NCBI GenBank assembly: GCA_039680175.1
Contig: JBDKTO010000013.1
Coordinates: forward strand, 1-57,225
DNA: 57,225 nucleotides
Source of the DNA: Veillonellales bacterium
Lineage (GTDB): Bacteria > Bacillota > Negativicutes > JAAYSF01
Direction: 5' to 3'
The position numbers were made by a program, and so were the translations under genes. Shown piece by piece: positions 1,760 through 40,060 of the stretch (the first letter of the stretch is position 1; each line of letters begins with the position of its first letter). The notes under the pieces were generated by a model. It saw only the letters and a list, made by a program, of their open reading frames with translations, was not told where the DNA came from and ran no database searches.

Positions 1760-1776
1760 TCAATAGTAAAATACTA

Positions 1777-1835: not shown

Positions 1836-1850
1836 TTTATATAAAATATG

Positions 1851-1879: not shown

Positions 1880-1905
1880 AGAAAATGAAAACAGGAGGTG
1901 ATATA

Positions 1906-4904: not shown

Positions 4905-4917
4905 GGGGGAACATGCA

Positions 4918-7976: not shown

Positions 7977-8019
7977 TTATAATTACGTGATAAAAAATTT
8001 AATACGAAGGTGCATACAT

Positions 8020-8276
8020 ATGACATTTCCTCAACACATCACTGAATATCTTAATCGCCATGATCAGATAAGCGCGCCTGGCTGTTTGGGTCAGTGGCGC
8101 AGGGAAAGGCGCGGTAGGACAGTGATATTGATATTGCCATTTTGTTTGTGCCCGGATTAGCCGCAGAGGAACGATTTGATTTAAAGCTGACTATCGCTGT
8201 TGAATTGGCCGGGATAGCCGGGCGGGATGTGGATATTGTTGATATGGAGGCAGTTTCTTTTAGAGGAAAGATTTAA
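8020..8276 (+). pseudogene. Decayed MNT-type nucleotidyltransferase (MntA-like antitoxin) inside the cas operon
   Basis: An ATG at 8020 behind a GAAGG opens MTFPQHITEYLNRHDQISA. The reading then shifts frame near 8072-8081 and continues in the frame of 8082 as LFGSVAQGKAR, a TAG stop at 8115-8117, then DSDIDIAILFVPGLAAEERF and on to RDVDIVDMEAV, ending at TAA 8274-8276. GS-x-x-x-G with DSDID is the nucleotidyltransferase metal site of minimal nucleotidyltransferases such as MntA, which pairs with HEPN toxins. One frameshift plus one nonsense codon make it a pseudogene. A second frame continues to about 8298 (LLEERFKRFYDGH), possibly the original C-terminus. No HEPN partner gene remains. Confidence 0.75.
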
Positions 8277-8336
8277 GCGATTTTATGATGGCCATTGACC
8301 AGTTGTTATAATGCCTGTACGGGGGAGAGTGATGGT

Positions 8337-8843
8337 ATGGGTGAACAGGAAGTCACCGTTGGCGGTACTCTTATTTGGTATTATTACATATGTCCGCGGG
8401 AAGTGTGGCTGATCAGTCATCAGATTCAGGCGGACCAGGATAACGACAATATGATGCTGGGCCGGTTTATCGATGAACTGAGCTATTTGCGGGAGAAAAA
8501 ACAATTATCCGTTGGCGGCAGCAAAATTGATGTGTTTCACATGGATAACGGTGAAATGGTGATCGGTGAGGTGAAAAAGAGCTCAAAATACCGGGAGAGC
8601 GCCCGGATGCAGCTGGCATTTTATCTGAGTGAACTGGATCGGCAAGGCATAAAAGCTAAAGGCGAACTGCGTTTCCCCCAGGAAAAGCTGCGGGAAGAAG
8701 TGGTACTGGATACAGAAATGCGAGCCAGGCTGGAAAAAACGACTCAGGAAATCTTGCGCCTTGTTTATTTGGAAAAGCCGCTGGCACCTAAAAAGATTTC
8801 CTTTTGCCGCAATTGTGCTTATGCTGAATTTTGCTGGTCGTAA
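8337..8843 (+). CDS. cas4: CRISPR-associated exonuclease Cas4
   Basis: About 168 residues from ATG 8337, chosen because GGGGGAGAG (8321-8329) sits 7 bp upstream; the reading frame is open from 8295. Cas4 trims prespacers and selects PAMs during adaptation with Cas1-Cas2. Visible: one Cys in YYICPREVWL and three in FCRNCAYAEFC, which together ligate a 4Fe-4S cluster; RecB-like nuclease motifs with DVFHMDNGEMVIGEVKKSSK (Asp, then Glu-x-Lys), and a QLAFYLSEL helix. All cluster and catalytic residues are present. Base composition is more G/C-rich than cas8b-cas3, as for cas1. Confidence 0.94.
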   Translation: MGEQEVTVGGTLIWYYYICPREVWLISHQIQADQDNDNMMLGRFIDELSYLREKKQLSVGGSKIDVFHMDNGEMVIGEVKKSSKYRESARMQLAFYLSELDRQGIKAKGELRFPQEKLREEVVLDTEMRARLEKTTQEILRLVYLEKPLAPKKISFCRNCAYAEFCWS

Positions 8844-8863
8844 TTTGAGACGAGGTGGGATGA

Positions 8864-9856
8864 TTGAAAAAGACGTTATATTTTTTTTCTAGCGGGGAAC
8901 TGCTTCGCAAGGACAATACGCTTTGCTTTGAAGGCGAAAATGGCCGCCGGTATGTGCCGGTAGAGGATGTCAGTGATATTATGGTATTTAGTGAAGTAAA
9001 TATCAATAAAAAGTTACTGGAGTTTTTGTCACAAAAGGAGATTATTCTTCATTATTTTAACTATTACGGCTATTACATGGGAACCTTTTATCCCCGCGAG
9101 CACTTGAATTCTGGGTACGTCATATTAAAACAAGCGGAACATTATTTGGATGAGCATAAACGGCTTGATATTGCCCGAAGGTTTGTTGACGGGGCGGCGC
9201 AAAATATAGGTAAAGTATTAAAATATTATCATAGCCGGGGTAAGAATGTAGCCGAGGAGCTGGTCGGTATCGAAACATTGCAGCAATCGATCGGCGCCAG
9301 CACGGCGATATCGGAATTAATGGCCTTCGAGGGGAATATTCGGGAAAAATACTATAAATCGTTTGACGCCATTCTTGGCAACGAAGATTTTTGTTTTGAA
9401 GAACGCACCCGCCGACCGCCGAAAAACAACTTAAACACCCTAATCAGCTTCGGTAATTCACTGATGTACACGCTTTGCCTGAGTGAAATCTATAAAACCC
9501 ATCTGGATCCGCGCATTGGCTATTTGCATGCCACCAATTTTCGCCGGTTCAGTTTGAATCTTGATGTAGCGGAGATTTTTAAGCCGATTATGATCGACAG
9601 AATTATTTTTACCCTCATTGGCCGTAAAATGCTTGGTAAGAAAGATTTCGAGCATGGCACTGAAGGAATTATGATGAAGGAAAAAGCCAAAAAGATCTTT
9701 ATACAGGAACTGGATTCGAAATTGAATGCTACCATCAAACACCGGGATATTGGCCGACCGGTGTCATACCGGCGGCTTATTCGCTTGGAGCTTTACAAGC
9801 TGGAAAAGCATGTAATGGGTGAAAGCTTATATGAACCTTTCGTTGCCCAATGGTAA
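8864..9856 (+). CDS. cas1: CRISPR integrase Cas1 (type I-B)
   Basis: A 330-residue Cas1, the catalytic part of the Cas1-Cas2 integrase that inserts new spacers at the leader end. Start is TTG 8864 behind GAGGTGGGA. The N-terminal beta domain begins LYFFSSGELLRKDNTLCFE. The metal site is visible as the Glu in MAFEGNIREKYY, the His in GYLHATNFRRFSLNLD and the acidic LDVAEIFKP. EIILHYFNYYGYYMGTFYPRE is typical for the I-B branch. Length is normal and nothing is missing. Confidence 0.96.
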   Translation: MKKTLYFFSSGELLRKDNTLCFEGENGRRYVPVEDVSDIMVFSEVNINKKLLEFLSQKEIILHYFNYYGYYMGTFYPREHLNSGYVILKQAEHYLDEHKRLDIARRFVDGAAQNIGKVLKYYHSRGKNVAEELVGIETLQQSIGASTAISELMAFEGNIREKYYKSFDAILGNEDFCFEERTRRPPKNNLNTLISFGNSLMYTLCLSEIYKTHLDPRIGYLHATNFRRFSLNLDVAEIFKPIMIDRIIFTLIGRKMLGKKDFEHGTEGIMMKEKAKKIFIQELDSKLNATIKHRDIGRPVSYRRLIRLELYKLEKHVMGESLYEPFVAQW

Positions 9857-10140: not shown

Positions 10141-10359
10141 ATGGTTCCGTTTCTATAGTACCCCGCTATTGCCGTCAATATAGGATAGCGCAAAAATACC
10201 GGCCGGTCGACGACACTGAAAATGCTGATAACTCAAGGATTCATCGACTTTTGGAAAATAATTTTAAAAAACCATTTAAGGTGTATTAGAAATTTTTGCT
10301 TTTGCGCTGAGCCAGAAAGATACTTGGCTTTTAGTATGTTGCTTTTTGGGAAAATGGGG
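10141..10359 (+). promoter_or_regulatory. CRISPR leader
   Basis: 219 bp between cas2 and the first repeat with no gene. The 100 bp next to the array are A/T-rich with several T runs. The opposite end of the array has the degenerate repeat, which confirms that this side is the leader and that new spacers enter near 10390. I could not fix a clear -35/-10 pair in it. Confidence 0.8.
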
Positions 10360-13300
10360 GTTTTTAGCTTACCTAAGAGGAATTGAAACGCCAGTTCTAA
10401 TAGCCAGGACGGAGATAAGTATCGAGTTTTTAGCTTACCTAAGAGGAATTGAAACAAGCTGGATGACTCATCAATCACAACCATGTCAAACGTTTTTAGC
10501 TTACCTAAGAGGAATTGAAACACATTTTTCATCCGTCCTATAAACGCACCTGTGAGTGTTTTTAGCTTACCTAAGAGGAATTGAAACATCCGGGTTTATT
10601 CCCGGTTCAAGCCTTCAACCTTTGGTTTTTAGCTTACCTAAGAGGAATTGAAACCGACAACGGCTTCGGAAGCTGCAGTCAAAGTGGGAAAGTTTTTAGC
10701 TTACCTAAGAGGAATTGAAACACTATATATTCCGATCCACATAGAGTACAGATGTCGGTTTTTAGCTTACCTAAGAGGAATTGAAACTGACCACCTCAAA
10801 CTTCCCGTACCGCGGCCGATAGTCGTTTTTAGCTTACCTAAGAGGAATTGAAACTCAATAGTAATGCGTACCCATAACATACGTCCTTTTGTTTTTAGCT
10901 TACCTAAGAGGAATTGAAACCTGGTAATGGCTTTTTCCATAGCGGTAATGCCAAATATGTTTTTAGCTTACCTAAGAGGAATTGAAACAAATAGATGTTC
11001 CGTTTGCTGTTCGAGGTGCATAGGGTTTTTAGCTTACCTAAGAGGAATTGAAACACCCCGGAATGGTCATGGTTGCCGGTAATAAATTTCGGTTTTTAGC
11101 TTACCTAAGAGGAATTGAAACTGCGCTCCTGCACCTGATCGGCTGCTGATTGTACTGTGTTTTTAGCTTACCTAAGAGGAATTGAAACTTTTTTTCTGCT
11201 AATGTCAAGTATCCCATCCCCCTCGTTTTTAGCTTACCTAAGAGGAATTGAAACAATTTTCTTCCTCTATCCATTCAACAGGCGTTCCGCGTTTTTAGCT
11301 TACCTAAGAGGAATTGAAACTCAAACACCATGACCGGAGCGGCCTGCAAGCCTCTAGGTTTTTAGCTTACCTAAGAGGAATTGAAACATCTCCATTTGCT
11401 TGTATCGCCGCCATCGTGAACAAGTTTTTAGCTTACCTAAGAGGAATTGAAACTTGTGGCAACCTTGTATCCTGCATCCTGGTATGGTTTGTTTTTAGCT
11501 TACCTAAGAGGAATTGAAACAAAAATCTTCATGCGCTTTGTCTGCATAATCATCAAGTTTTTAGCTTACCTAAGAGGAATTGAAACCTTGCTGGTGATGG
11601 TATCAAGGCTGGTTGTGGTATCGGTTTTTAGCTTACCTAAGAGGAATTGAAACCCCGCAGCGGATGTATATTTATTTAAATATAGTCAATGTTTTTAGCT
11701 TACCTAAGAGGAATTGAAACCATAGACGGCAATTAACTCCTAGCCAGCTAGGCATGGTTTTTAGCTTACCTAAGAGGAATTGAAACCGAGCAAGGCAGAA
11801 GCATTGCCGAAAGATTTCAACCGGGTTTTTAGCTTACCTAAGAGGAATTGAAACCAAGGCCGAACGCAAGGAGAAAAAGAAAGGTTCCTTGGTTTTTAGC
11901 TTACCTAAGAGGAATTGAAACAAGAACAGTCAATTTGCAAACATTGCGGGCATGACAAGTTTTTAGCTTACCTAAGAGGAATTGAAACCAAAGCGATATT
12001 GAATAAATCTGATAATGTGCTTGAGTTTTTAGCTTACCTAAGAGGAATTGAAACACTGGAAAGACAACAAAGAATCCAATACAGGTTACCGTTTTTAGCT
12101 TACCTAAGAGGAATTGAAACTTGTGCAGTCCGGCAAAGGCTTCCGGTTTCTCTTTACGTTTTTAGCTTACCTAAGAGGAATTGAAACGGAGACGGCAAGC
12201 CCCGCTTCTTCATGTCTTTTTTTGGTTTTTAGCTTACCTAAGAGGAATTGAAACACCGACTCTGTCACTAGCTTGCTTGACCATTCCGGCGTTTTTAGCT
12301 TACCTAAGAGGAATTGAAACCTATCCACTGCCCTTGCATAGCTATACACATGATAACGTTTTTAGCTTACCTAAGAGGAATTGAAACTCCTCCATTCCAT
12401 CCAATGTATACTTAATGTTAATCGTTTTTAGCTTACCTAAGAGGAATTGAAACTGTATATTCTCTGAACACCACCAGGACAACCTTCGCCGTTTTTAGCT
12501 TACCTAAGAGGAATTGAAACATTTCGGATATAAGCTGGAAAGTGTCATACTGGAAAGTTTTTAGCTTACCTAAGAGGAATTGAAACTGACAAGTTTTAAA
12601 ACGTGTTCAAGCTTTTCAATGTACGTTTTTAGCTTACCTAAGAGGAATTGAAACTACCTTCAGCAACACCGGTACCGTATTTCTGAATGGTTTTTAGCTT
12701 ACCTAAGAGGAATTGAAACATTACAGCTTCCGATTTTTGGAACGGCGAAACGGAACGTTTTTAGCTTACCTAAGAGGAATTGAAACTTTTTCAAACCGCT
12801 TTTCGTCCGTACGCTAACACGGTTTTTAGCTTACCTAAGAGGAATTGAAACATTTCAATTTTTGCACCTCCTTTAATGTAATTTTAATGTTTTTAGCTTA
12901 CCTAAGAGGAATTGAAACGAGATATCTGTGCGATAAATCGATATTCCAAATGGGGTTTTTAGCTTACCTAAGAGGAATTGAAACCCTTTAGATTTTCAAT
13001 AGCCGCCTTGACTTTTGCAAGTTTTTAGCTTACCTAAGAGGAATTGAAACTAAAACGGCTGTTAGGTTCAGCATATGTCGTTGGTAAGTTTTTAGCTTAC
13101 CTAAGAGGAATTGAAACATGCAATACGCCGGATAACTTCCGGCTCCTATGGTCGGTTTTTAGCTTACCTAAGAGGAATTGAAACTCACTAGCAAGGGATG
13201 CAAGATATTCTTTGTCTTCGTTTTTAGCTTACCTAAGAGGAATTGAAACTTCAGTTTCTTGATTCCTTCCTTGGATACTCCCACAGTTTTTAGCTTACCT

Positions 13301-14846
13301 AAGAGGAATTGAAACGGATTCTATGTATGTCATCGGTTCTTCCCTAGAATCAGTTTTTAGCTTACCTAAGAGGAATTGAAACAAAAAAATATCGGTCTAG
13401 TCAGATATGATTCCGGTTGGGTTTTTAGCTTACCTAAGAGGAATTGAAACTTGGATTGTACTTTTCGCCGCCATTGGCAAAAAACTGTTTTTAGCTTACC
13501 TAAGAGGAATTGAAACTTTTTTGCTGTTCTTTTCTATCCATGTTCTTACCCCGTTTTTAGCTTACCTAAGAGGAATTGAAACCTCGCTGGTTGGGGTATC
13601 AAGGCTGGTGATGGTATCAAGTTTTTAGCTTACCTAAGAGGAATTGAAACTTCTGCAGAAGACATTGGGAATGAACTTGGGATATGCGTTTTTAGCTTAC
13701 CTAAGAGGAATTGAAACTACAAAATGAAAATCCAAAACAATAAAAATCGAATCGTTTTTAGCTTACCTAAGAGGAATTGAAACGTGGGTACGGAATCGGG
13801 GAGTATACGGGCGTTTTAGTTTTTAGCTTACCTAAGAGGAATTGAAACCAATATGGCCAAACACCGTAAAGCGCTTGCGATCCTAGTTTTTAGCTTACCT
13901 AAGAGGAATTGAAACATCGCATTCCGATGCCGCTGAACGACGCTCAATTTGTGTTTTTAGCTTACCTAAGAGGAATTGAAACGGTAAAACAGCAATGCAA
14001 TTAGAGTGGTCAAGACACAGTTTTTAGCTTACCTAAGAGGAATTGAAACATTCAATTCCAATACCCCTGCGTCCCATTTTTACCGCGTTTTTAGCTTACC
14101 TAAGAGGAATTGAAACTTTGCGGCATGAAACACAGCCTAACTTCTGAAAGAGTTTTTAGCTTACCTAAGAGGAATTGAAACGCCGCCGCAATGATGACAG
14201 CAAGGTTGCATGCACAAGTTTTTAGCTTACCTAAGAGGAATTGAAACTCAAGCAAGCTGGACATTGAAACGAACATTCCTCTGCGTTTTTAGCTTACCTA
14301 AGAGGAATTGAAACTATCTAGGTTCAACTTCATTCAAAAACTGGGACAAAGTTTTTAGCTTACCTAAGAGGAATTGAAACGCACACCAGAAATTGAATAC
14401 GCCGCTCTTGCTATGGTTTTTAGCTTACCTAAGAGGAATTGAAACATTTTCATTCCACTGTACTGCATCAGAATAGGCGGCGGTTTTTAGCTTACCTAAG
14501 AGGAATTGAAACAGCAATACTCGCAAGAGTCTGCAGAAGAAATAGCGGCGTTTTTAGCTTACCTAAGAGGAATTGAAACACCAACTTTCCATCTACAACC
14601 TTCAATGTCGTGACAGTTTTTAGCTTACCTAAGAGGAATTGAAACAAATACTCATCGGCGTCAACTTATGCACAAATTACCGGTTTTTAGCTTACCTAAG
14701 AGGAATTGAAACTTTTTATCAATCCTCCTGCTATCAGCTTTTTCTCATCGTTTTTAGCTTACCTAAGAGGAATTGAAACATTACTTGAATCCACCGCAAG
14801 AAATAATCATGCTTTGGTTTTTAGCTTACTTATGAGGATTTCTGAG
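10360..14846 (+). CRISPR. Type I-B CRISPR array, 67 intact repeats plus one degenerate repeat, 67 spacers
   Basis: The repeat is 30 bp: GTTTTTAGCTTACC, TAA, then GAGGAATTGAAAC. I counted 67 copies that I read as intact from 10360-10389 to 14750-14779. A final degenerate copy at 14817-14846 keeps the first half but ends TTATGAGGATTTCTGAGG. Spacers are about 34-39 bp, mostly 36-37. The ATTGAAAC end is the classical 8-nt crRNA handle. The array is transcribed in the plus direction, away from cas2. The repeat can form only a very small hairpin (CTTA/TAAG). Several false open reading frames run through the array on both strands because the repeat is open in them. Confidence 0.99.
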
Positions 14847-14914
14847 GGCTTCTTGTAGTTCTAAATAAAATTAGCATTTAGGGGAATTTATGTGGGAAAT
14901 GGAATGAAAAACTA

Positions 14915-14943
14915 TTGACAAGGCAATAGAGAGAGCGTATTAT
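14915..14943 (+). promoter_or_regulatory. Sigma-A promoter upstream of the IclR-type regulator
   Basis: TTGACA (14915-14920), 17-bp spacer, TATTAT (14938-14943). Near-consensus. Transcription would start near 14950 and give a ~175-nt leader before the regulator start, containing two hairpins. Confidence 0.75.
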
Positions 14944-14960
14944 ATTTGCAATTGAAGACG

Positions 14961-14996
14961 GAGCATTAAATTTCACATCGTGAAATTTAAAATGCT
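14961..14996. promoter_or_regulatory. Palindrome just downstream of the promoter, candidate IclR operator
   Basis: The core is AAATTTCAC-ATC-GTGAAATTT (14968-14988), a perfect 9-bp dyad. It is nested in longer outer arms GAGCATT and AATGCTC with one extra A. It starts about 10 bp after the predicted transcription start, a good place for repression of the regulator's own gene. The binder is inferred from the adjacent IclR gene. Confidence 0.55.
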
Positions 14997-15030
14997 CTGG
15001 CAGCAAGTATAAAAATATGCTTTTGGGCGA

Positions 15031-26872: not shown

Positions 26873-27337
26873 TTACTGCATTAACCCGATATAGACATCC
26901 ATATCGATATCGTCAACGGCAAAGGTGACTACGACCACTTTCGCTACGGCAAGCAGTACTTGTCCGTCTTTGCCAATCAGTATAGTCGGTGGTGAAATAT
27001 CAAGTCCGCTAATCTCCGCCTGACTGAAAAAGGTACAGGCATTAGCACACACCATATTTCCCAGCTCGGAAATGGCACTTTGGGCCAAACTGTTAAATTC
27101 GGTAATTTCCATGCCGCCCATCATTTTTCCGGCAACTTTTTTTGCCCCGTCGAGGCTCATGCCGATTAAGATGGACCCCTTCAACGGGCCGACAACGCTG
27201 ATGTTAATTAATACGCCTTTATTCAGCAGTGTGTTGCCGGATAAGGACAGCCCTTTTCTCTCAATTTTGGCAAATCCCAGCTGGGGAATAATATTGGCGA
27301 AGGCATCCAATATGGGATTGATCATTTTTACATCCAT
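26873..27337 (-). CDS. cheX: CheX-type chemotaxis phosphatase
   Basis: 154 residues. INPILDAFANIIPQLG at the N-terminus, then SLSGNTLLNKGVLINISVVGPLKGSILIGMS, and the phosphatase helix SAISELGNMVCANACTFF with the Glu-x-x-Asn pair used by CheC/CheX/FliY to attack phospho-CheY. Only one such helix is seen, as in CheX dimers. It overlaps the receiver gene upstream by 10 bp, so the two are translated together, and it probably dephosphorylates that receiver or another CheY. Confidence 0.85.
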   Translation of the reverse strand: MDVKMINPILDAFANIIPQLGFAKIERKGLSLSGNTLLNKGVLINISVVGPLKGSILIGMSLDGAKKVAGKMMGGMEITEFNSLAQSAISELGNMVCANACTFFSQAEISGLDISPPTILIGKDGQVLLAVAKVVVVTFAVDDIDMDVYIGLMQ

Positions 27338-28191
27338 AGTACCGACTCCTTCTGGAATCCGATTCCCAGATAGATGGGTCCAAAGTTTGTAGCCCCATGG
27401 ATACTTTGAATTTGCAAAGTCGGGCTGACCACTTCTGTTGGTGCACCGTAAAATACGTTGGGCGGTGCCACCCTGAGACCCAGGGCCTTTTCTTTTTTGT
27501 TCAGCATGGAACAGGCCACTCCGGCGACTATATTGGCAAATTCAGCTCCCAGAGCCAGTACTTCATCTAAATTTTTTGCCTCCCGCCGGAGAATGACCTG
27601 AGCCATTTTTTTGGCAGTATCCACCGAAAGATCCAAAATCATTGATCCTGAGTAGCGTCCAATAATCCCGATTACCACGGCAATTCCCTGAGAAGTGAAC
27701 CGGGTCTCCTGGGGTGATTCATCAACAAAAGAGGCAGTCGCTTTGGTCATGCGGGTTACATTTTGCGCTAGGGCTTCTTTAAAAGCAGCGATGCCAAACG
27801 TAGTTAAGCTCTCAAATAAGGAATCCGGAGCGAGAACATTAGTCAATATCCGCCTGAGGACATCGGCATCCACCGGTTTTTGTATATAACCGACAATCCC
27901 AATTCGTTTTGCTTCTGTTTCCGTTTCTTCATCTTTCATGGAACTAACCAATACGATTTTCGCTGCCGGATCGTGCAGAAGCAGGGCCTTACTGCACTCA
28001 AAACCATCAGCGCCGGGCATTGCGATATCCATAGTTACAATATCAGGTTTACAGTTCGGGTATGTTTCCAGCATCGTTTCCAGAGATTCGGCTTCCCCGA
28101 CAACTTCGCAGCCATTTTCCTGTAATGTTTCAGCGAGAAGTGTGCGAGAAAAGGGAGAGTCGTCGACGATCATTACCTTAATAAGCCCCAT
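27328..28191 (-). CDS. Response regulator: CheY-like receiver fused to a CheX-like domain
   Basis: 287 residues. Receiver at 1-120 with VMIVDDSPFSR (acidic pair D10, D11), TMDIAMPG (phospho-acceptor D55), VLVSSMKDEE (Ser) and YIQKPVDADVL (Lys). The C-terminal half (about 130-285) is CheX-like, with TKATASFVDESPQ and helix ALGAEFANIVAGVACSML that again carries Glu-x-x-Asn. No DNA-binding domain. Such a protein could be its own phosphatase or act on CheY. ATG 28191; a weak TATAAT-like promoter lies upstream on the minus strand near 28230. Confidence 0.88.
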   Translation of the reverse strand: MGLIKVMIVDDSPFSRTLLAETLQENGCEVVGEAESLETMLETYPNCKPDIVTMDIAMPGADGFECSKALLLHDPAAKIVLVSSMKDEETETEAKRIGIVGYIQKPVDADVLRRILTNVLAPDSLFESLTTFGIAAFKEALAQNVTRMTKATASFVDESPQETRFTSQGIAVVIGIIGRYSGSMILDLSVDTAKKMAQVILRREAKNLDEVLALGAEFANIVAGVACSMLNKKEKALGLRVAPPNVFYGAPTEVVSPTLQIQSIHGATNFGPIYLGIGFQKESVLWM

Positions 28192-29240: not shown

Positions 29241-29828
29241 TTAACTGGGGGTGGTCGTGGATGAAGCTACGGAAGTGATTGCTTCCAGGTTGACGACTAC
29301 CGTACTGATATCATCGTCGGAAATGGAAGTGCTGGTGCCTGGTCCGAATATATCCTCAACTGTCAATATCGCCAGCTCATCGTCAATAACGCCGAGGATT
29401 CCTTCAAACAAAAAGCCGCCAAGGGTGGTTATGGTTACCAGGTCTCCCAGCATCCGTTTCAGCTGGCAGATTAACAAGTGGCTTTCCTGACGTCCGGGAG
29501 GGGGTTGAATTCTATTTGGAGGCGGGAACGGCGGTCCTGGCGGGTCAATTGGATCACTGCTGATGGCAGTGCCTTTGCCGACGATAGTCCAAAGATCGAC
29601 CCGGAGAAATTCAGTCGTTCTCAGTTCTCCCCCCGGAGTAAGAATTTCCACATCGGTTGTTTCTGCCGTGACGGCCGGGCCAAGAGCTGCGATACGGCAG
29701 TCTTCGATTCTTTGCAAACGGCCGAAATAGATAAACCCGTCGACGCCAAATAATAATACATCCGTATTGAGCTCGCGCTGCAGTTCTCTAATCAGGGCTT
29801 CATTGCGCAGTTCTTTAAAAATACCCAT
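29241..29828 (-). CDS. Protein with two Sm-like repeats joined by a Pro-rich linker
   Basis: 195 residues, not a family I can name. Residues about 20-60 (TDVLLFGVDGFIYFGRLQRIEDCRIAAL) and 130-165 (GDLVTITTLGGFLFEGILGVIDDELAILTV) look like copies of one small beta-barrel: a strand, a G-x-x-x-x-G turn, then a conserved acidic tail, as in Sm/LSm and spore-surface small beta-barrels. They are joined by DPPGPPFPPPNRIQPPPG. The C-terminus is Ser/Thr-rich (SVASSTTTPS). No signal peptide or membrane segment. Position in a glycosylation island suggests a surface or spore-coat protein; a cytoplasmic nucleic-acid role is not excluded. Confidence 0.5.
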   Translation of the reverse strand: MGIFKELRNEALIRELQRELNTDVLLFGVDGFIYFGRLQRIEDCRIAALGPAVTAETTDVEILTPGGELRTTEFLRVDLWTIVGKGTAISSDPIDPPGPPFPPPNRIQPPPGRQESHLLICQLKRMLGDLVTITTLGGFLFEGILGVIDDELAILTVEDIFGPGTSTSISDDDISTVVVNLEAITSVASSTTTPS

Positions 29829-29949: not shown

Positions 29950-30903
29950 TTATTTGGTTATGCTGCGCAGGTTTTTGTTGTACCAATCAACAGTCAAAGC
30001 CAGCCCCTGATGTAAACTGGTCTTAGGGGTGAAGCCGAATTTCTCTGCCGCCCGGGTTGTGTCAAGAGCCCGGCGGGGCTGGCCGTTTGGTTTAGCGGTA
30101 TCCCAGCATATTTTACCAGTAAAGCCGGTAGCATGGCTGATCAACGCGGCTAATTCTTTTATAGGAACTTCGCGGCCGGTTCCCAGATTTACCGGCGCGC
30201 TGTCGTTATAATGTTCGGCGGCAAGGAGGATTCCTTCGGCAGCATCGCCGGCAAAAAGGAATTCCCGGGATGCGCTGCCGTCGCCCCACAGGGTAATCCT
30301 ATCTTGCCGCCGGTCGATGGCAGCGCAGCATTTTTTGATAAGTGCCGGTATAACATGAGAAGAGTCCAGATTGAAATTATCGCCTGGGCCATACAGATTG
30401 GCAGGCAATAGAAAAATGGAGTTAAAACCGTATTGCTGCCGGTAGGCTTGGCTTTGCACCAGCATCATTTTTTTTGCCAGACCGTAGGGAGCATTTGTTT
30501 CCTCCGGATATCCGTTCCAGATATCGGTTTCATGAAAGGGAACCGGGCAGTACTTGGGATAAGAGCACACCGTTCCAATAGCCACGAACTTTTCTACGGC
30601 ATAACGGCGGGCATATTCAATAAGCTGGGCTCCCATTACCAGGTTATCATAGAAATATTTGCCGGGATTTTTTTGATTTGCTCCTATCCCGCCAACGACG
30701 GCAGCCAAGTGAATCACTATATCCGGCTGGCAGTCTTCGTACATTTGGCGGACTTGATGAGCCTGGGTCAAATCGTAATTTTGGCTGCGGGGGACGAAAA
30801 TATTGGCGGCACCGCGCTCAGCCAGCTGTTTTACGACATAGGTACCCAGGAACCCGGCGCCGCCGGTAACGGCAATCCGGCGCTTCGCAAAAAAGTCGCT
30901 CAT
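29950..30903 (-). CDS. fcl: GDP-L-fucose synthase
   Basis: 317 residues. NADP site [14 protein letters not shown]; catalytic Ser-Tyr-Lys as [14 protein letters not shown] and [25 protein letters not shown] and [12 protein letters not shown] are characteristic for Fcl/WcaG. It converts GDP-4-keto-6-deoxymannose to GDP-L-fucose, the second step after Gmd. It overlaps gmd by 4 bp (ATGA). The sugar would feed the two big glycosyltransferases upstream in the same orientation. Confidence 0.94.
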
Positions 30904-31958
30904 GTGCTTATCCTCCCGACAAGAACCGCTTTCGCCTGTTTAAAATCTTCTTCCACCATGAGACTCACCAGTTCAGCGAAGGAAACAGTCGGCCGCCAGC
31001 CAATTTTCCGGGTGGCTTTGCTGCAATCCGCCAGCAGCAGGCTGACTTCGGTTGGCCGAAATAAGCGGGAATCAACTCGAACCAGCACTTCCCCGGTAGC
31101 TGCATTGACGCCCGTTTCCTCCAGTCCGCTGCCGATCCACTTGATATTAATGCCCACATTTTCAAAAGCCAAAGTAGCAAATTCCCGGACGGTATGGCAT
31201 TCACCGGTGCCAATGACACAATCAGTTGGTTCATCCTGCTGCAGTAAAAGCCATATGGCCTGAACATAGTCACCGGCATAGCCCCAGTCCCGCTTGGCAT
31301 CTAAATTTCCCAAGTAGAGCGTTTTCTGCAGTCCAAGGGTAATCCTGACAACGCCCTGCGTAATTTTTCTGGTCACGAAAGTTTCGCCCCGCAGGGGAGA
31401 TTCGTGGTTGAACAGGATTCCATTACAGGCAAAGATCTGATAGGCTTCCCGGTAGTTAATCGTAATCCAGTAGGCGAACAGTTTGGCGACTGCGTAGGGA
31501 CTTCGTGGGTAAAAGGGGGTTGTTTCGCATTGGGGAACCATTTGAGAATCGCCGAATAATTCGCTGGTCGAAGCTTGATAAAATCTTGTTTTTTTCGTGA
31601 GTCCAAGCATTCGGATTGCTTCCAGCAAACGTAGTGTGCCTATTGCATTTGTATTGGCTGTGTATTCCGGCGTTGCAAAGGATACTTTGACATGGCTTTG
31701 CGCCCCTAAATTATAGATCTCATCCGGTTCTACCTCCGCTACAATCCGGGTAATATTCGCTGAATCGGTGAGATCGCCGTCGTGCAGGAGCAGTCCATCT
31801 TCGCCCGGAGCGGCAGGCCGCAAGTGAGCGATGCGTTCGGTGTTGTCGGTGGAAGCATAGCGCTTTAGTCCGTGAACCCGGTAGCCTTTTTTCAGTAGTA
31901 AATCGGCAAGATATGCACCGTCCTGACCGGTAATTCCGGTGATCAGAGCCGTTTTCAT
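30900..31958 (-). CDS. gmd: GDP-mannose 4,6-dehydratase
   Basis: 352 residues. Start [20 protein letters not shown] is diagnostic of Gmd; [34 protein letters not shown] (Tyr-x-x-x-Lys) and [17 protein letters not shown] are all present. It makes GDP-4-keto-6-deoxy-D-mannose. ATG 31958 lies ~275 bp downstream of the glycosyltransferase end; the gap holds repeats and an inverted repeat. Confidence 0.95.
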
Positions 31959-31996: not shown

Positions 31997-32239
31997 GTGC
32001 GCCAAGTGTCATGCGCCATGCGCTAAAAAAATCCATATAAGTCGAAAGTGACACCGCCCTTAACCGGGTGTTTGCCAACGCTCCGCCGCCACAGCTTAAC
32101 CTCCGCTTATGGCAAACACCCGACTAAGGCCTCCCCGTCATTTATCTTCTAAGTGCTAAGTGCCAAGTGCCAAGTGCCATGCGCCATGAGCCATGAGCCA
32201 TGCGCCATGCGCCATGCGCCATGCGCCATGCGCTAAAAA
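31997..32239. repeat. Heptamer repeat tract with inner inverted repeat
   Basis: Twelve 7-bp units run from 32151 to 32234: four of type AAGTGCC (first as AAGTGCT), then eight of type ATGCGCC/ATGAGCC, the last ending ATGCGCT. A shorter 4-unit copy is at 31997-32024. Both end with ATGCGCCATGCGCTAAAAA (32011-32029 and 32221-32239), a 19-bp direct repeat 210 bp apart. Between them CGGGTGTTTGCCA (32065-32077) and TGGCAAACACCCG (32110-32122) form a 13-bp inverted repeat. The right copy overlaps the glycosyltransferase stop codon. Confidence 0.9.
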
Positions 32240-35200
32240 CGAATCTCTGTCGCATTATCCCGAATGGTATGAAACAGCAGCTGCTGATACTGGGCCATGG
32301 TTTCCGGCGTGACGGCATAGTCCGTTTCCGCATAACGGGATAGAACAAGTCCCAGCGTCTGCCACGTTTCCTGATTAGGCCGGGGTGTATGACCTACATG
32401 ACAGGCAAGCGGGGACGACAGCAATTTAGCCGGTACATCGTTGGCGATGGCCAGCAGCAGCGCCCAATAGTCCCACCAGGGCAGGCCGAGACAAAAGCTT
32501 TCCATCGGGTAATCCGGGAGGACATGTTTATCAAAGAATAAATAATCAAACGCGCCGCTATGAACGGTGCTTTCAGTTGAGTCCGGGGCGGAAATATCAT
32601 AGCGGGAGCCGAATATAATCGAACCGGCCGCTTCTTTTTGCAGTAAAGTGGCAAGATGGTTGTTCCGAAGAATCAGATCCGATTTTATAATTCCGCCGAT
32701 ATCCGCTGACTGCTCCTGGCAGCAATGGAGCAGATCGCGAAAATAGATATAACGCTGCCCGTAGCGTTCTCTCGCATCCCGGAAGGCAGTGACAAAGTCT
32801 ACGTTCGGAAAGTGAGGCCGGAGAGCAGCAATATCTTCCCGGGAGTTTAGGGCAATAACACGGAATCCGGCTTGCTGCCAGCTTTTAATGGCGATCTGCT
32901 GGTTGGCGATATTGTCAGGCGACAGTGTGGTAACAAGCGGGATGGCTGCAACTGCTGTTTGCGGAACCGAGCGGGAGCGACCATCAATTTGCTGCAGGAA
33001 AAAAGAGCAGAGTTGTCCGGCAAGTTTTAGAGCTGCGGTCTGCGCTTCCTGCTTTGCCTGCTGCTCCGCCGCGTCATTGCCGCCGGGATGACAAGCTGGC
33101 AGCAGGGCCGAAATCTTTTTCGCCAGATCTTCGGGACTGCTTTTTTGGAAAACGGTTCCATATTGATGTTCCAAATGAGCGTCAATGTCACTTACGATAA
33201 TGGGTTTGCCGAGACTCCGGCATTCCAGCACAATCTGGCCCAAGCCCTCGAACAGGGAAGGCTGAACAACGAACAGGCACTGGCGGATGAGCTGAATTTG
33301 ATCTTCCCGGGGAATCATTCCCAGGATCGTAACTTGATCGCTGATCTTTAAATCGGCAATTGCCGACTGCAGTTCACCGAAATAGGCGGGAGCCCGGTAA
33401 TCTTCCGTCGGGCCGGTGCAAACGAGCGGAATGTTTTGTCCCCGCTGTTTTAAAAGCTGGATGGCACGAAATAAGGTCAAATGATTTTTATGCAGCCAGA
33501 ATTGGTTGGAGCATAAAATAAACCGTTCCGGCAGGCTATATTTCCCCCGTACCTGGTTCGGGTCTGGAAGGTACCAGTTTTCATCGGGGTAAGATACCGG
33601 CGTAAACACGACTGCTTCGGCGGTGGATTGGGGATAAAATTTCCGGAAATCTGCAGCGGCGGCCTGGGTGCTGAACATGATCAGCCGCGATTGCTCGGCT
33701 ATTTTTTTGAATTGGGATTCCCGGAACTGATATTCGTAATTGGAGAAAAACTCCGGTAAATACCGGTGCTGAAAATCAGGAATCCAGGACATGGCTTTAG
33801 CTGTCACTAAAGTGTCGCTGTTGACAGGAAAATAGAAATCAACCAGGGAAAAAACTTCCTCCCAGGACTGACAGTGAATAGAAGGGGATCCCAACTTTTT
33901 ATTCAGTAATTCCGGGTTCGGTCCGACAAACATAATTCCGTCAAACAGGTGGGCAAAGGGCTGGTAAAATTCAAAATCAGACTGGGTTTTGTCGGTAACC
34001 ACCAGGTAGAGTTGAGGCCGGTCTTCTTTTGGCAGGGTACATAAACACTGGACAAGGGCTCTTATATGGGAAACGCCGCCATACCAATGCTTGCCGCCGG
34101 TCAGCTGAATTCCGATGCGGGTATCTGCAATCATCCAAGTTTCCTTCTTTCGGGCTATTTCGTAGCCATAAGTTTCAGGAGGCTTTCCCAGAGCTTGCTG
34201 CAGCCCCTTGCGTACCGATTCAATGTAGGCACCGGGGCTGTAACGCTCACGGATTACTTCCAGTGAACGGATGCTTTGTTTGCGTATCCAGTCAGCAGGC
34301 ATCCGGGAGAATCGGTCAACGGTTTCCGCAATACAGTCGATACTGCAGTTCTCGAGAAATTGCCCCTCGTCCTCATTGATGCCGCATTCTTTGCTCAGTA
34401 AGGGAATGAGACCGAAGGACATGGCGGTCAGCGCGCTGCCGGAAATTCCCTCCGAACAGGAAGGTAGAATCATGTAACTGCAGTGCCGGACTATTTCCCT
34501 GAAGATCGGTCCCGAGGTGTCTAAAAAACCAATGGGCTTAATGTTGTGGCAGTGAAATAACTCCTGCCGGTATAAGGTGCAAAAGTCCGGCTCACGCTCA
34601 AACAAGCTGCACACATACAAAGTGGTCTGGGGGCTGCAGGGAAAAACCTCCAGCAAAAGATCCAGCCCTTTTAAAACTTGGGGCTGACTGGCCAGAAATA
34701 AAAAATTGCGGGGCGATTTTAAGGAAAAATCGAGATCGGGTACAATGATACAGCCATTGTTTTTAAGCAAGGATACTTTTGTTTTTTCTACATTTTCAAA
34801 GGTTTCCAGGGTATGCTGATTGCCCATCAGCAGCAGGTGATCGAAGTCGTTGGGATGAGGGTACTCGTATTCCTGTTTTGTCTGTGTTTTTAGTTTCACA
34901 CCGCACCGCTCAAAGAGGGCAGCCTGACGGAGTTTTTCCTGCCGGTACTGCCACTGAGGGGAAGAGCCGGTGGCATACAGAAGCTCACGGCAGTCCGGCC
35001 GGAGGCGGGATTCATATATCTGCCGGTTGTGCGGGGAGATATCGACGACCAAATCATATTCCTTAGTAAAGTCAATCCGGGCTGCAAACCAGTCGATGAC
35101 GTCCACGTTATAACCCCATTCGCCGATTAGACCGGCAAGAGCAGAAACCTGCCAGAGGTTTTGATGCCAGGGACGGCTTGGAACCGGCTGCCGGAAAGGA

Positions 35201-35274
35201 CCGGTGATATACTTCAGCAAACAATTTTTAAAATATCCGGTCTTATTTACATTTTCCACAATAATATCACTCAT
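32233..35274 (-). CDS. Giant glycosyltransferase: two GT4-like modules plus novel C-terminal domain
   Basis: 1013 residues. Module 1 (about 1-375) ends in MILPSCSEGISGSALTAMSFG, and module 2 (about 380-755) has GGKHWYGGVSHIRAL, FILCSNQFWLHKNHLTLFRA and VQPSLFEGLGQIVLECRSLGKPIIVSD; both are the E-x7-E type sugar-nucleotide sites of GT-B family 4. The last ~250 residues (VTTLSPDNIANQQIAIKSW through SFCLGLPWWDYWALLL) are a domain also found at the end of the next glycosyltransferase. It probably decorates surface or spore proteins or polysaccharide. ATG 35274, 21 bp after the neighbour. No signal peptide, so cytoplasmic. Confidence 0.85.
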   Translation of the reverse strand: MSDIIVENVNKTGYFKNCLLKYITGPFRQPVPSRPWHQNLWQVSALAGLIGEWGYNVDVIDWFAARIDFTKEYDLVVDISPHNRQIYESRLRPDCRELLYATGSSPQWQYRQEKLRQAALFERCGVKLKTQTKQEYEYPHPNDFDHLLLMGNQHTLETFENVEKTKVSLLKNNGCIIVPDLDFSLKSPRNFLFLASQPQVLKGLDLLLEVFPCSPQTTLYVCSLFEREPDFCTLYRQELFHCHNIKPIGFLDTSGPIFREIVRHCSYMILPSCSEGISGSALTAMSFGLIPLLSKECGINEDEGQFLENCSIDCIAETVDRFSRMPADWIRKQSIRSLEVIRERYSPGAYIESVRKGLQQALGKPPETYGYEIARKKETWMIADTRIGIQLTGGKHWYGGVSHIRALVQCLCTLPKEDRPQLYLVVTDKTQSDFEFYQPFAHLFDGIMFVGPNPELLNKKLGSPSIHCQSWEEVFSLVDFYFPVNSDTLVTAKAMSWIPDFQHRYLPEFFSNYEYQFRESQFKKIAEQSRLIMFSTQAAAADFRKFYPQSTAEAVVFTPVSYPDENWYLPDPNQVRGKYSLPERFILCSNQFWLHKNHLTLFRAIQLLKQRGQNIPLVCTGPTEDYRAPAYFGELQSAIADLKISDQVTILGMIPREDQIQLIRQCLFVVQPSLFEGLGQIVLECRSLGKPIIVSDIDAHLEHQYGTVFQKSSPEDLAKKISALLPACHPGGNDAAEQQAKQEAQTAALKLAGQLCSFFLQQIDGRSRSVPQTAVAAIPLVTTLSPDNIANQQIAIKSWQQAGFRVIALNSREDIAALRPHFPNVDFVTAFRDARERYGQRYIYFRDLLHCCQEQSADIGGIIKSDLILRNNHLATLLQKEAAGSIIFGSRYDISAPDSTESTVHSGAFDYLFFDKHVLPDYPMESFCLGLPWWDYWALLLAIANDVPAKLLSSPLACHVGHTPRPNQETWQTLGLVLSRYAETDYAVTPETMAQYQQLLFHTIRDNATEIRF

Positions 35275-35295
35275 ATAAATCCTCCGCCGGCAGGC

Positions 35296-38127
35296 TTAAA
35301 ACCAGATATCACTGGCGTCGTTATTAATCTTTTGAGCCAGAGTATGCAGATATTTCAGCATCGTATCGTTCGTCAGAGCAAAGGGACAAGGCACATAATT
35401 CGCCAGCACCGTCCCCAGCGTAAGCCAACTCTCTTTCGTCCAGGCCGTTTGGTGGGAAACATGAACAGCAGCGGGAGTAATCAGCCGCTTTACCGGCCAG
35501 CGTCTCTTTAGCGGCATCAGGGCAGCCCAGTAGTCCCACCAGGGAAGGCCAAGACAAAAGGCTTCCTGGGGAAAAGATTGCAGCAGATCCTGACTGAAGA
35601 AAAAGCAGTCAAAGCCGAGAGGATACCATTTCCCTTCCCGGGATTCAGGGGTGGGTACGTCAATCCGTGATGTGAAGAGAACGGTTTTATCTGACTGAAC
35701 AGCGATAAAATCCAACAGCTTGGGCTCAAGGAGATAAATGTCCGAATTAATAATGCCGCTGATTTTTGTCTGAGTGCGGGCTAAACAAGCGAGAAGATCA
35801 TCGAAATAGATATAGGGATGCTGAAACTGGCGGCGGGCATCCCGGGCTGCTACGCGAAATTCTACATCCGGGAAAGCGGACTGCAATTGTTCGATTTCTT
35901 CCTGCGGATTGAGGGAGATGACTTGAAAGCCTGCGGCAAGCCAGGTAGACAGTGCAGCCTGCTGCAGTGCTTGATTGCGGGGCGCAATAGAGGTGGCTAC
36001 ATATATCCGGTTCGGCAGCAGAATCTCCACGCGGCCCAGTTTTTTGAGCCGTATTTTTTTGCCGGAATCGGCTGGCGGAAGCTGTGGGTGAGAAATGCTT
36101 GGCGGACTTTCCGCGGACAGCAGTTGGAACAGGGTATTTTCAAAAGAAGGCTGGGCCGCCGGTCCGTTGAACAAAGTGTCCATCGCCTTTTTCTTGATTT
36201 TTTGGGAAACCCGCCAGCGAAGCTGGCTGTCTCCGGCGAGACGGACAGCCCAGGCGATATACTCTTCCTCATTGGCGCCGATTCCTTCGCTGATACCCAG
36301 GGCTCGCAGCATACCGGCGCCCCAGCGGCTTCGCGACAGTTCCCCTTCCTGGGTGACAACCGGCAGCCCCAGAAACAGGGCTTCCAGATTAGTGGTCCAG
36401 CCGCCGTAAGGATACGTATCCAACTGAACATCGGCTATCGACAGCAGTCCCAGCACATTGCGGTAGTTCCCCAACGCGGGTAGGATTAACAGCCGTTTGC
36501 CTACACCTGCTTCGTCAGCCAGGGTTCGCAGCCGTTTGGCCATTTTGGCATCAATGCCGTCCCTGGTAGTGTATGGTTTCAGCAATATCCAGGCATTGGG
36601 CGCCTGTTTAAGAATTTCCACATAAACCTCATCCCGCTCCGGGCGCTGCTTAATGCCGTTGGCGCAGGAGATAAAGAGGACCGCATCGTCGGGAATGCCT
36701 AATTCCACCCGGGAGGTAGCGGCGGCGGGACTGTCGGGCAAATATTGGGCGGCACCCAGATTCGGCAGCCGAATCAATTTTTCCCGATACTGGGACTGGG
36801 CGTCGGGGTGTTCGAAGTCCCCGCTGATATAGTAATCGATTGTCGGCAGTCCGGTAGTCGTGCCATGGCCGACCATGGCACATTGGATCGGTGCCATTTT
36901 CAGTCCGGCCAGTATATAAGTTACAACATCCATACCGATGTCGGTAAAAATGAGAATATCCAGCTTGCTGTTGATAACGCTGTTGATAATGGCCGAAAAA
37001 TTTTGCAGATTCGTGAACTGTTCAAAGTGCTCGCTGTTTTTTGCATACATGTCGGTAAATTCATCTTTGTATTCACCCAGGGCATAGACGAATACTTCAA
37101 AACGGCTGCGGTCGTGATAAAGAATGCGGTTGATCATGTAGTAACTGACGGCCTGGCGGAAAAAGTTCCGGGAGATGTAGCCGACTCTTATTTTTTCGCC
37201 GGGATGAATAGTGCGGGACACCATCTTCGGCAGCTGGGGGCAAAAACGGTGGATGGTTGTTGAAATGGTATCGCCGAAGGCGGACAATGCGGTCAGATTA
37301 TTGCCGCCGATATAGGAGGCCCGCCAGAAACCAGTCATGACCTCCTGGACTAACGTGACAAAATAAGCTTGAGATACAATCTCCGGATGGCTTGTTATGG
37401 CCCGGCAGATTTCCGGAACGTAACGCACCAAGCGGTCGCGGTGTTTCATGGTGCCGCTGAAATAAGGAATATATATCATCCAGCGCAGCAGAATAGTTTT
37501 GCATAAAAAGGGCAGGTTTGACGCGAAAAGCTCCATACTGTCGATATTAAAATCATCTGCATCTGCCGGGTAATACATGCTGGCAACAAGAAGGCCGGGG
37601 TAGCCGAACTTCTTCCAGCCGGCAGGCTGGAAGGGGAGGGAGGCTGGTTGTCGGTTCAGCATATGAAGCGGGGAAAACAGGTTTAAAAATACCTGCGGCC
37701 ATAATTCCAGCATGATCTGCTGGTAGTTTTCCGGCAGCTCAGATAGAGAAAGGCAGTTCGGGTGCAGCAAATGTTCCCGCAGTTTTTCCCTGAGTCTCAG
37801 GCAGACGCAAACCGCAGCGGCCTGCTCTTCCTGGGGCAGGGCGGGATAGCGTTCCGGCAGTTTCCGCCAGGTGCGCCACTTGCCGATTAATTCCCAGAGA
37901 ATGAGGCTGCTTTCAGGCGGCACATGGGATAAAAAATAACACATAGACAGATCGATGGTAATGTGCCTTTCCGTTTCACTTTGAAAGGGGTGGTTCTGAC
38001 ATAGTTCCTCGAATTTTTGCCATACCGGCTGCCAGCCGCCGACGGCGGCTGCCTCGACCAGCTGAGCCAGATTGTATTGCTGAAACAGCTGCTGCCAGGA
38101 AGATTCTGCATCGGTGGTTGATTCCAT
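35296..38127 (-). CDS. GT41-like (O-GlcNAc-transferase/SPINDLY type) glycosyltransferase with the same C-terminal domain
   Basis: 943 residues. N-terminal ~300 residues are helical (TPR-like but without clean repeats). Residues about 310-680 match bacterial GT41: KIRVGYISRNFFRQAVSYYM, LDILIFTDIGMDVVTYILAGLKMAPIQ, MVGHGTTTGLPTIDYYISGD and DTYPYGGWTTNLEALFLGLPVVT. Residues about 695-943 are the shared domain, with AALSTWLAAGFQVISLN, GIINSDIYLLE and FCLGLPWWDYWAALM. GT41 enzymes modify Ser/Thr of proteins such as flagellins or adhesins. The repeat protein immediately upstream (38411-40060) is the nearest candidate substrate; this is inference. Confidence 0.88.
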   Translation of the reverse strand: MESTTDAESSWQQLFQQYNLAQLVEAAAVGGWQPVWQKFEELCQNHPFQSETERHITIDLSMCYFLSHVPPESSLILWELIGKWRTWRKLPERYPALPQEEQAAAVCVCLRLREKLREHLLHPNCLSLSELPENYQQIMLELWPQVFLNLFSPLHMLNRQPASLPFQPAGWKKFGYPGLLVASMYYPADADDFNIDSMELFASNLPFLCKTILLRWMIYIPYFSGTMKHRDRLVRYVPEICRAITSHPEIVSQAYFVTLVQEVMTGFWRASYIGGNNLTALSAFGDTISTTIHRFCPQLPKMVSRTIHPGEKIRVGYISRNFFRQAVSYYMINRILYHDRSRFEVFVYALGEYKDEFTDMYAKNSEHFEQFTNLQNFSAIINSVINSKLDILIFTDIGMDVVTYILAGLKMAPIQCAMVGHGTTTGLPTIDYYISGDFEHPDAQSQYREKLIRLPNLGAAQYLPDSPAAATSRVELGIPDDAVLFISCANGIKQRPERDEVYVEILKQAPNAWILLKPYTTRDGIDAKMAKRLRTLADEAGVGKRLLILPALGNYRNVLGLLSIADVQLDTYPYGGWTTNLEALFLGLPVVTQEGELSRSRWGAGMLRALGISEGIGANEEEYIAWAVRLAGDSQLRWRVSQKIKKKAMDTLFNGPAAQPSFENTLFQLLSAESPPSISHPQLPPADSGKKIRLKKLGRVEILLPNRIYVATSIAPRNQALQQAALSTWLAAGFQVISLNPQEEIEQLQSAFPDVEFRVAARDARRQFQHPYIYFDDLLACLARTQTKISGIINSDIYLLEPKLLDFIAVQSDKTVLFTSRIDVPTPESREGKWYPLGFDCFFFSQDLLQSFPQEAFCLGLPWWDYWAALMPLKRRWPVKRLITPAAVHVSHQTAWTKESWLTLGTVLANYVPCPFALTNDTMLKYLHTLAQKINNDASDIWF

Positions 38128-38410: not shown

Positions 38411-40060
38411 TTATGGAGTAAAAGAACCGAATTTCGGGATAAAATCAACGCTCTTAACATCAGTTCCAGCAATTTGAGCGCCAGTGTTATTCGCCTGTAT
38501 TGCACCGGGATAGAGGCCAGCCACCATGTTAGTGATCAAGATTTCAAATTCACTGGATCCACTGAGGGAAATGTTTCTAAACTCATTGGCACTGAACGCA
38601 TTTATCGGTAATGGTTGATTAAATATTTCAGTAAACGGGCTGGTATCCAGGCTGAAAGCCCTAACCCGTACTGTCTGAGGAGTGCGATTATTGTTCAGAA
38701 CTTTAATAGTTAAAGTTTCGGAATTTGGTACGACGAATATCGGGCCGGAAGTTACATCCGCTGTAGTATGGAGGACGGCATTTTCGAGGAAGCGAACTTC
38801 GTTCTTAATCTCATTGAGACCGAAGGTAGGGCTGTTGACGCTGTTGTTGATAGCAATGACTTCGTTGAAGAGATTGCGTAAGCCGAAGGTGCTGTTGTTA
38901 ACGGTATTGTTAATAAGGGTCACTTGGTTTTCAACGAAGCGAACCTCGTTCTTAATCTCATTGAGGCCGAAAGACGGGCTGTTGACGCTGTTGTTAATAA
39001 GGATCACTTCATTTTCGACAAATCGTATTTCGTTCTTTACTTCGTTTAAACCAATTAACGGATTGTTAAGAATATTGTTGATGTCAACGGCTTCATCGGC
39101 AATTTGATTTAGTATGTTATTAATAAAAATAACTTCATTCCTGATGAAGATTACGGAATTTTCGACAAAACTAACTTCGTTTTTGATTTCATTCAGGCCA
39201 ATTAGCGGGCTATTAATCGTATTGTTAATGAGAACAATTTCATTTTCGATGAACTTTATTTCGTTTTTTATTTCGTTGAGACCAAAAATAGGACTGTTAA
39301 CAGCAGTATTAATCTGTTGGACTTCATTCTCAACAAATCGGACTTCGCATTTAATTTCTTTCAGACCAAAGCACTTGTCGGTCAGCAGTTTTTCGATTTC
39401 CCGGGTTTCACATTTAATTTCTTTCAGGCCAAAGCACTTGTCGGTCAGCAGTTTTTCGATTTTTCGGATGTCGTCCAGGAGAATGCAGGTAAATGTTTGG
39501 AGCTGACGCCTGGTACCGGGAGATACCCTCAGACATTTTGCAACTTCTTCCGCCGTTAGTTTCAATTGCTTAACACAAGCGGCGATGCGTTGAATATCCC
39601 GATCGTGGAGGTGGTTGGCGGCGTGACACTCCTGATGCTTCGGACAAGTATTGCATTCATCCCATTCGTGGTGATGCTCATCGCAGACGCATTCACAAGG
39701 ATCTTGTTTTTTGGGGGGACACTCGTGGTGGTGTTCGTCGCATTCACAAGGATGTTGTTTTTTCCATAGAGGACAATCGTTGTGCTTTGGGCAGGTAGGG
39801 CATTCGTCGTACTCGTGGTGATGCTCATCGCAGACGCATTCACAAGGATCCTGTTTTTGGGGGGGACACTCGTGGTGATGTTCATCGCATTCATAAGGAT
39901 GTTGTTTTTTCCATAGAGGACATTCATTGTGCTTTGGGCAAGTATAGCACTTAAGGAAATCTCCGTTATTCGCCTGAGCCCGACGGTATTGCTCGCAGTT
40001 TTTCTTATCCGTTTCATTGACAGGGGCTGTATATTTGGTTTTATCTATAGGGCGGTCCAC
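38411..40060 (-). CDS. Repeat protein: Cys/His-rich N-terminus, coiled-coil 28-residue repeats, beta C-terminal domain
   Basis: 549 residues from GTG 40060 behind AGGTGATAAG. Residues ~38-165 hold two near-identical ~45-residue repeats and a partial third: CPKHNECPLWKKQHP, CDEHHHECPP, CECVCDEHHHE, very rich in Cys and His and likely metal-binding or cross-linked. Residues ~200-455 are repeats of about 28 residues on GLNEIKNEVRFVENEV plus LINNSVNSPSF, predicted coiled coil. The last ~95 residues (FVVPNSETLTIKVLNNN to VAGLYPGAIQ) look like a beta-sandwich tip. The pattern (anchor, fibre, tip) is that of spore-surface or exosporium fibre proteins; no signal peptide. No known family recognised. 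Confidence 0.7.
   Translation of the reverse strand: MDRPIDKTKYTAPVNETDKKNCEQYRRAQANNGDFLKCYTCPKHNECPLWKKQHPYECDEHHHECPPQKQDPCECVCDEHHHEYDECPTCPKHNDCPLWKKQHPCECDEHHHECPPKKQDPCECVCDEHHHEWDECNTCPKHQECHAANHLHDRDIQRIAACVKQLKLTAEEVAKCLRVSPGTRRQLQTFTCILLDDIRKIEKLLTDKCFGLKEIKCETREIEKLLTDKCFGLKEIKCEVRFVENEVQQINTAVNSPIFGLNEIKNEIKFIENEIVLINNTINSPLIGLNEIKNEVSFVENSVIFIRNEVIFINNILNQIADEAVDINNILNNPLIGLNEVKNEIRFVENEVILINNSVNSPSFGLNEIKNEVRFVENQVTLINNTVNNSTFGLRNLFNEVIAINNSVNSPTFGLNEIKNEVRFLENAVLHTTADVTSGPIFVVPNSETLTIKVLNNNRTPQTVRVRAFSLDTSPFTEIFNQPLPINAFSANEFRNISLSGSSEFEILITNMVAGLYPGAIQANNTGAQIAGTDVKSVDFIPKFGSFTP

Follow-up and report, generated by a model that had tools for sequence, protein, structure and literature searches.

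Bacteria have glycosyltransferases in which GT-B and GT-A modules are combined in one multi-domain protein. The GT-A core is recognized by four hallmarks, namely the DxD motif, the glycine of the G-loop, the acidic xED residue in helix alpha-F and a C-terminal His, and a conserved xED-like acid correlates with inverting enzymes (PMC7185993). SPINDLY is a GDP-fucose protein O-fucosyltransferase in which K665, K689, Y744 and E752 contact GDP-fucose (PMC9715652, PMC10027727), and its donor-specificity residues are K689, A731 and Y744 (PMC10027727). Here we analyzed a window of 57 225 nt (the whole stretch of DNA under study) in which two adjacent glycosyltransferase genes end in the same additional domain. 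Judged by its predicted structure, this domain probably belongs to the GT-A class of glycosyltransferases.

Both open reading frames were found where a preliminary description of this DNA had placed them, on the minus strand and with 21 bases between them: a GT41 fusion of 943 aa (38127-35296) and a GT4–GT4 fusion of 1013 aa (35274-32233). The expected contrast of two GT4 modules in one protein against one GT41 part in the other was seen in the Pfam matches (PF00534/PF13692 in two stretches; PF13844). The first GT4 module (about residues 1-363; 34186..35274, minus strand) occurs in locus L048 as a separate gene of 362 aa (L048:2589-3674), with 41% identity over residues 1-363, and the second (about residues 381-760; 32995..34134, minus strand) is matched by PF13692 at residues 586-725 with an E-value of 1.5e-24. 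When we compared the two proteins by BLASTP, residues 778-1013 of the GT4–GT4 protein aligned without gaps to residues 708-943 of the GT41 protein (97 of 236 identical, 41%; 196 bits, E-value 9e-56), and FCLGLPWWDYWA is the same in both copies. The similarity is far beyond chance and covers 236 residues, not the about 250 first proposed; outside this C-terminal segment no significant match was observed, which agrees with the claim that the rest of the two proteins is unrelated. The domain thus extends over 35299..36006 (minus strand) in the GT41 protein, where it is defined by BLASTP, alignments A1-A3, an AlphaFold model and the GT-A fold found with Foldseek and VIA, and over 32236..32943 (minus strand) in the GT4–GT4 protein. 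No third copy was found in the host genome. The linker between the GT41 part and the domain (about residues 671-707; 36007..36117, minus strand) shows pLDDT values of about 26-54 in the full-length AlphaFold model of the GT41 fusion, which has a pLDDT of 69 and a pTM of 0.52, so the relative placing of the two active sites is not readable from it. Scans for promoters and terminators gave results near chance level.

The domain had been described as unrecognized, and our searches place it in a family that is absent from the libraries used; the word uncatalogued here refers to Pfam, NCBIfam, PHROGs and PDB sequences. No Pfam or NCBIfam model covers it in the 44 relatives or in the two window copies, apart from stray matches below cut-off (CUE, LMF1_C and DUF5326 of Pfam, each in one or two members, were dropped), and PF00535 (GT2) matched none of the 44 members over the domain at an E-value of 1. 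PHROGs gave no match for the three members tried, and no PDB chain was matched by sequence, including with a profile of 44 rows, so that the profile search suggested in the preliminary description led to no known family. Searches of the literature for the motif and for such fusions returned nothing on the domain.

Next, we investigated how widely the domain is spread. It occurs in 17 of 300 sampled genomes of the host's class and, within a phylum sample of 398 genomes, in the host only. A scan of genome contigs yielded 27 domain loci from Bacillota, Cyanobacteria, Pseudomonadota (Gamma-, Alpha- and Betaproteobacteria), Planctomycetota, Nitrospirota, Bacteroidota and a Geobacter-like genome, and the 44 aligned members represent at least six phyla. 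Viral contigs and phage records contained no relative, and plasmids contained a single distant relative, part of a TPR protein of Azospirillum. Besides standalone genes (about 240-290 aa), we observed fusions with parts of the types GT41, GT4, GT2, GT9, sulfotransferase, methyltransferase and TPR; from the standalone genes and the many fusion partners we conclude that the domain is an independent module. GT41 is present in 127 of the 300 class genomes compared to 17 for the domain and is thus common without it, which indicates that GT41 does not need the domain. We regard the domain as a new family of the known GT-A superfamily and not as a system of a new kind.

The GT41 catalytic part of the window protein (residues 308-668; 36124..37206, minus strand) matches PF13844 with 122 bits against a cut-off of 25 (E-value 2e-35), which assigns it to GT41. 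Among its PDB matches SPINDLY ranks first (7y4i, phmmer E-value 6e-38); O-GlcNAc transferases of bacteria and animals and HMW1C come after it. The four GDP-fucose contacts of SPINDLY (K665, K689, Y744 and E752) correspond to K493, K517, Y574 and E582 of the window protein and are invariant in eight homologues. At the donor-specificity sites K517 and Y574 match, and the position of A731 is occupied by L561, not by the Arg of OGT. A search with the model for NGT/HMW1C-like N-glucosyltransferases (NF049992) gave 67.7 bits against a cut-off of 1000, so that the protein does not fall into this group.

Upstream of the GT41 fusion lies the gene of an FGLNEIKNEV-repeat protein (38411..40060, minus strand), which consists of a Cys/His-rich N-terminus (HHHEC/CPKH Cys-His repeats), FGLNEIKNEVRFVENEV repeats and a C-terminal domain and has no Pfam match. 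Five other genomes (G002, G037, G048, G068 and G073) encode a homologue immediately upstream of their GT41 fusion; in G063 the homologue has a broken frame and lies on the same strand at a distance of about 2.8 kb upstream, with two opposite-strand ORFs in between. Counting the window, the repeat protein was therefore observed upstream of the fusion in all seven checkable genomes, directly in six of them; G122 was excluded from this count, as its contig ends first. Seven of the nine genomes with the repeat protein in the class sample also hold a GT41 fusion. The repeat protein is also present in G001 (1466 aa) and G102, and no GT41 fusion was found in either. For an excess of NxS/T sequons in the repeat proteins the P values ranged from 0.003 to 0.30, a mixed result in which the repeats are a confounder, and we discarded the sequon count as evidence for N-glycosylation. 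With its position upstream of the homologous fusions in other genomes, the repeat protein is a natural candidate for the glycan acceptor.

Downstream of the two fusions we observed genes for a GDP-mannose 4,6-dehydratase (gmd; 30900..31958, minus strand; TIGR01472 with 539 bits, cut-off 415) and a GDP-L-fucose-synthase-like reductase (fcl-like; 29950..30903, minus strand; NF047922 with 282 bits, below the cut-off of 500). A gmd gene adjoins the GT4 fusion in ten genomes, the window and nine of the class (G001, G002, G007, G025, G036, G055, G060, G065 and G070), some of these neighbours being only distantly related (about 40% identity), and it is absent beside the GT4 fusion in G048, G073, G075 and G122. 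As gmd follows a domain-less GT4 gene in L085/G063, it may serve the GT4 rather than the domain. Next to the sugar-nucleotide genes, a 195-aa protein without family match is encoded at 29241-29828 (minus strand), weak relatives of which (about 26% identity) are located beside the GT41 fusion in L047, and a HipA-like kinase (PF20613; 28290-29222, minus strand) lies between the sugar-nucleotide genes and CheX-type genes (26873-28191). At the start of the window (973-9856 and about 10200-15000), ORFs resemble by eye the genes of a type I CRISPR-Cas system (Cas6-, Cas7-, Cas3- and Cas1-like); after them comes a stretch of about 4.5 kb that lacks long ORFs, where the array may be located.

What these genes build can be read in two ways. 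The final glycan may be carried by the upstream repeat protein, an assignment that we consider plausible but somewhat short of even, and the donor used in the window may be a GDP-6-deoxyhexose such as GDP-L-fucose, which we propose tentatively. Our best guess for the step is hence the addition of a GDP-deoxysugar to a glycan of the repeat protein, and we hold it loosely. Alternatively, the domain could be a genuine GT-A transferase in a set of genes that builds a cell-surface polysaccharide or a lipid-linked glycan instead of a repeat-protein glycan. We regard this as a serious possibility, since loci of the Pelosinus type also hold glycosyltransferase-, sugar-dehydrogenase- and epimerase-like genes around the domain and several members in other phyla are parts of very long multi-GT proteins. 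However, GT41 enzymes of known function modify proteins, and both the constant position of the repeat protein upstream of the GT41 fusion and the co-occurrence of the two in the class sample speak for the repeat protein as carrier. Far more specific, and unlikely in all its parts together, is a cytoplasmic protein-glycosylation machine dedicated to one repeat protein, in which the SPINDLY-like GT41 would fucosylate the repeats, the GT-A domain would add a second sugar and the GT4–GT4–GT-A protein would complete the glycan with GDP-deoxysugars that the genes next to it supply.

In order to gain insight into the domain itself we modelled it with AlphaFold from an alignment of 44 sequences (pLDDT 96.3, pTM 0.92). 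The predicted structure has the GT-A (Rossmann-like) fold that the preliminary description had suspected. Foldseek returned 211 PDB chains at an E-value of at most 1e-3, with GT-A glycosyltransferases leading at about 1e-7 (chondroitin synthase CHSY3, 2e-7; SpsA, 8e-7), and VIA ranked the WrtF fucosyltransferase (Z 14.6; 3.1 Å over 200 residues), CHSY3 (Z 14.3) and GalNAc-T2 (Z 14.1) so closely that they are ties. Because many GT-A enzymes share the place of closest solved fold, the WrtF match speaks only weakly for a fucosyl donor. An hhalign comparison of the domain with eight GT2 domains reached a probability of 1%, yet it put N-S-D on the DxD columns; we do not count it as proof.

We placed the hallmarks by sequence order and predicted secondary structure and found the conserved residues in the published order: N-S-D at domain residues 87-89, G153, D158 and H182/H185. 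The DxD position after beta-4 is occupied in the GT41 copy by N-S-D (35740..35748, minus strand; between the predicted strands 82-85 and 90-92) and in the GT4 copy, according to the motif alignment, by K-S-D (32677..32685, minus strand); the S-D pair noted earlier is thus common to both, but the residue before it differs. Only the last Asp of the motif is kept (D89, 42 of 44 members). Most other members have N-S-D, and K-A-D replaces K-S-D in two of the GT4 fusion type (L020, L023). From N-S-D versus K-S-D it appears that metal use may differ between the GT41 and GT4 copies. At the xED position, W-W-D-Y-W (domain residues 156-160) is present in both copies as described before, at 35527..35541 in the GT41 copy and at 32464..32478 in the GT4 copy (both minus strand; the latter by BLASTP and motif alignment). 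It is located at the start of a predicted helix (157-167), where 42 of 44 members have Asp and one has Glu at residue 158; W160 is found in all 44. G153 takes the place of the G-loop glycine in 39 of 44 members, and the C-terminal His would be H182 or H185, each kept in 42. Altogether, D89, an acid at 158 and H182 are jointly kept in 42 of 44 members, and this conservation at published GT-A motif positions supports, at the level of prediction, the earlier suggestion of a catalytic domain. Because of the conserved xED-like Asp we infer that the domain is inverting, following the published correlation (PMC7185993). The two degenerate members (L018 and L021:2749-3462) are, as read from their sequences, likely inactive. 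The first of them (L018:1408-2199 = L026:5436-6224) is a standalone copy that lost D89, D158, H182 and H185 and is separated by two genes from an intact GT41 fusion.

The same data bear on whether the domain is an enzyme at all. A non-catalytic GT-A relative could bind the glycan or protein acceptor, or could serve its fusion partner as a scaffold in the way that COSMC serves T-synthase. The variety of enzyme types to which the domain is fused would suit such a targeting module, N-S-D and K-S-D are a reduced DxD, and motif residues are missing from 2 of 44 members. However, Asp89, the acid at 158 and His182 are kept in the other 42 across six phyla and standalone genes exist, and we therefore consider this explanation improbable. 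Still more improbable is that the domain supplies the fused glycosyltransferase with its donor as a sugar nucleotidylyltransferase: RmlA and KdsB are among the Foldseek matches (E-value about 1e-6), but their alignments are poor (rmsd 10-20 Å), VIA ranks glycosyltransferases first, and an xED-like Asp at a helix start together with C-terminal histidines are features of GT-A transferases (PMC7185993).

To place the two copies in relation to each other, a maximum-likelihood tree of 52 domains was calculated, the bootstrap of which is not fully settled and leaves several deep branches open. The window GT41 copy joins GT41 fusions of another family (support 100/99) and the window GT4 copy joins GT4 fusions (100/100). 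As each copy groups with its own fusion type, both fusions are older than the split of the families and both have been kept. A tandem duplication that is merely recent and functionally meaningless is hardly credible, since adjacent position and the lack of other common sequence fit it but the copies are not sisters and both retain the motif residues; the window copies are not a recent duplication. In the Pelosinus-type loci L089, L092, L094 and L095 a standalone domain gene lies one gene away from a domain-less GT41 gene (about 1090 aa), the split counterpart of the window fusion. Fusion in one lineage and neighbourhood in another are the usual sign of a shared pathway, which supports the common step proposed in the preliminary description. 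In one metagenome-assembled genome (L023:384-3078 = L088:10452-13146) two overlapping ORFs, one of 703 aa for the GT41 part and one of 200 aa for the domain, take the place of a single GT41 fusion gene; this is a frameshift or assembly error.

Taken together, we propose that the domain is a GT-A glycosyltransferase in its own right, complete and probably both inverting and metal-dependent, from a family outside the libraries searched, and that it is carried as a module on GT-B glycosyltransferases that would work in the same glycan pathway. Asp89 of N-S-D and His182 or His185 would hold the metal and the diphosphate of the nucleotide sugar, and Asp158 of P-W-W-D-Y-W, where helix alpha-F begins, would be the catalytic base for the hydroxyl of the acceptor. 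One sugar would come from the fused GT41 or GT4 module and the next from the tethered GT-A domain. In this scheme homology, predicted fold, motif placement, conservation and the fused and split forms were computed, and from them we infer activity, metal use, inversion and the order of steps.

Compared to known GT-A enzymes (SpsA, K4 chondroitin polymerase, CHSY3 and GalNAc-T2), the domain has the same fold and order of strands and helices, a glycine before alpha-F, an acidic residue starting alpha-F and a C-terminal His, but it shares only 8-14% identity with them, carries N-S-D for DxD and P-W-W-D-Y-W for xED and has no Pfam or NCBIfam match. The domain adds to the GT-A enzymes an uncatalogued family, in which the signature motifs are altered and which automatic annotation does not pick up. 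WrtF (PDB 9omh-9omn), a GDP-fucose enzyme according to the PDB entry titles, is the top VIA match, but at 12% identity and with non-fucosyl enzymes tied within 1 Z. SPINDLY resembles the GT41 part as its best PDB match with equivalents of K665, K689, Y744 and E752 kept; in contrast, its H495 and S496 are replaced by Q325 and A326, and the window protein has the extra GT-A domain. The finding also points to a SPINDLY-like way of glycosylating proteins in bacteria that can be put to the test. A module on unrelated enzymes that also stands alone near GT41 offers a handle on physically coupled steps of glycan assembly in bacteria. Like multi-domain bacterial GT-B/GT-A glycosyltransferases, the window proteins would unite several transferases in one chain for successive steps; unlike them, they carry a module that recurs on GT41, GT4, GT2, GT9 and sulfotransferase partners and whose family is an unlisted one.
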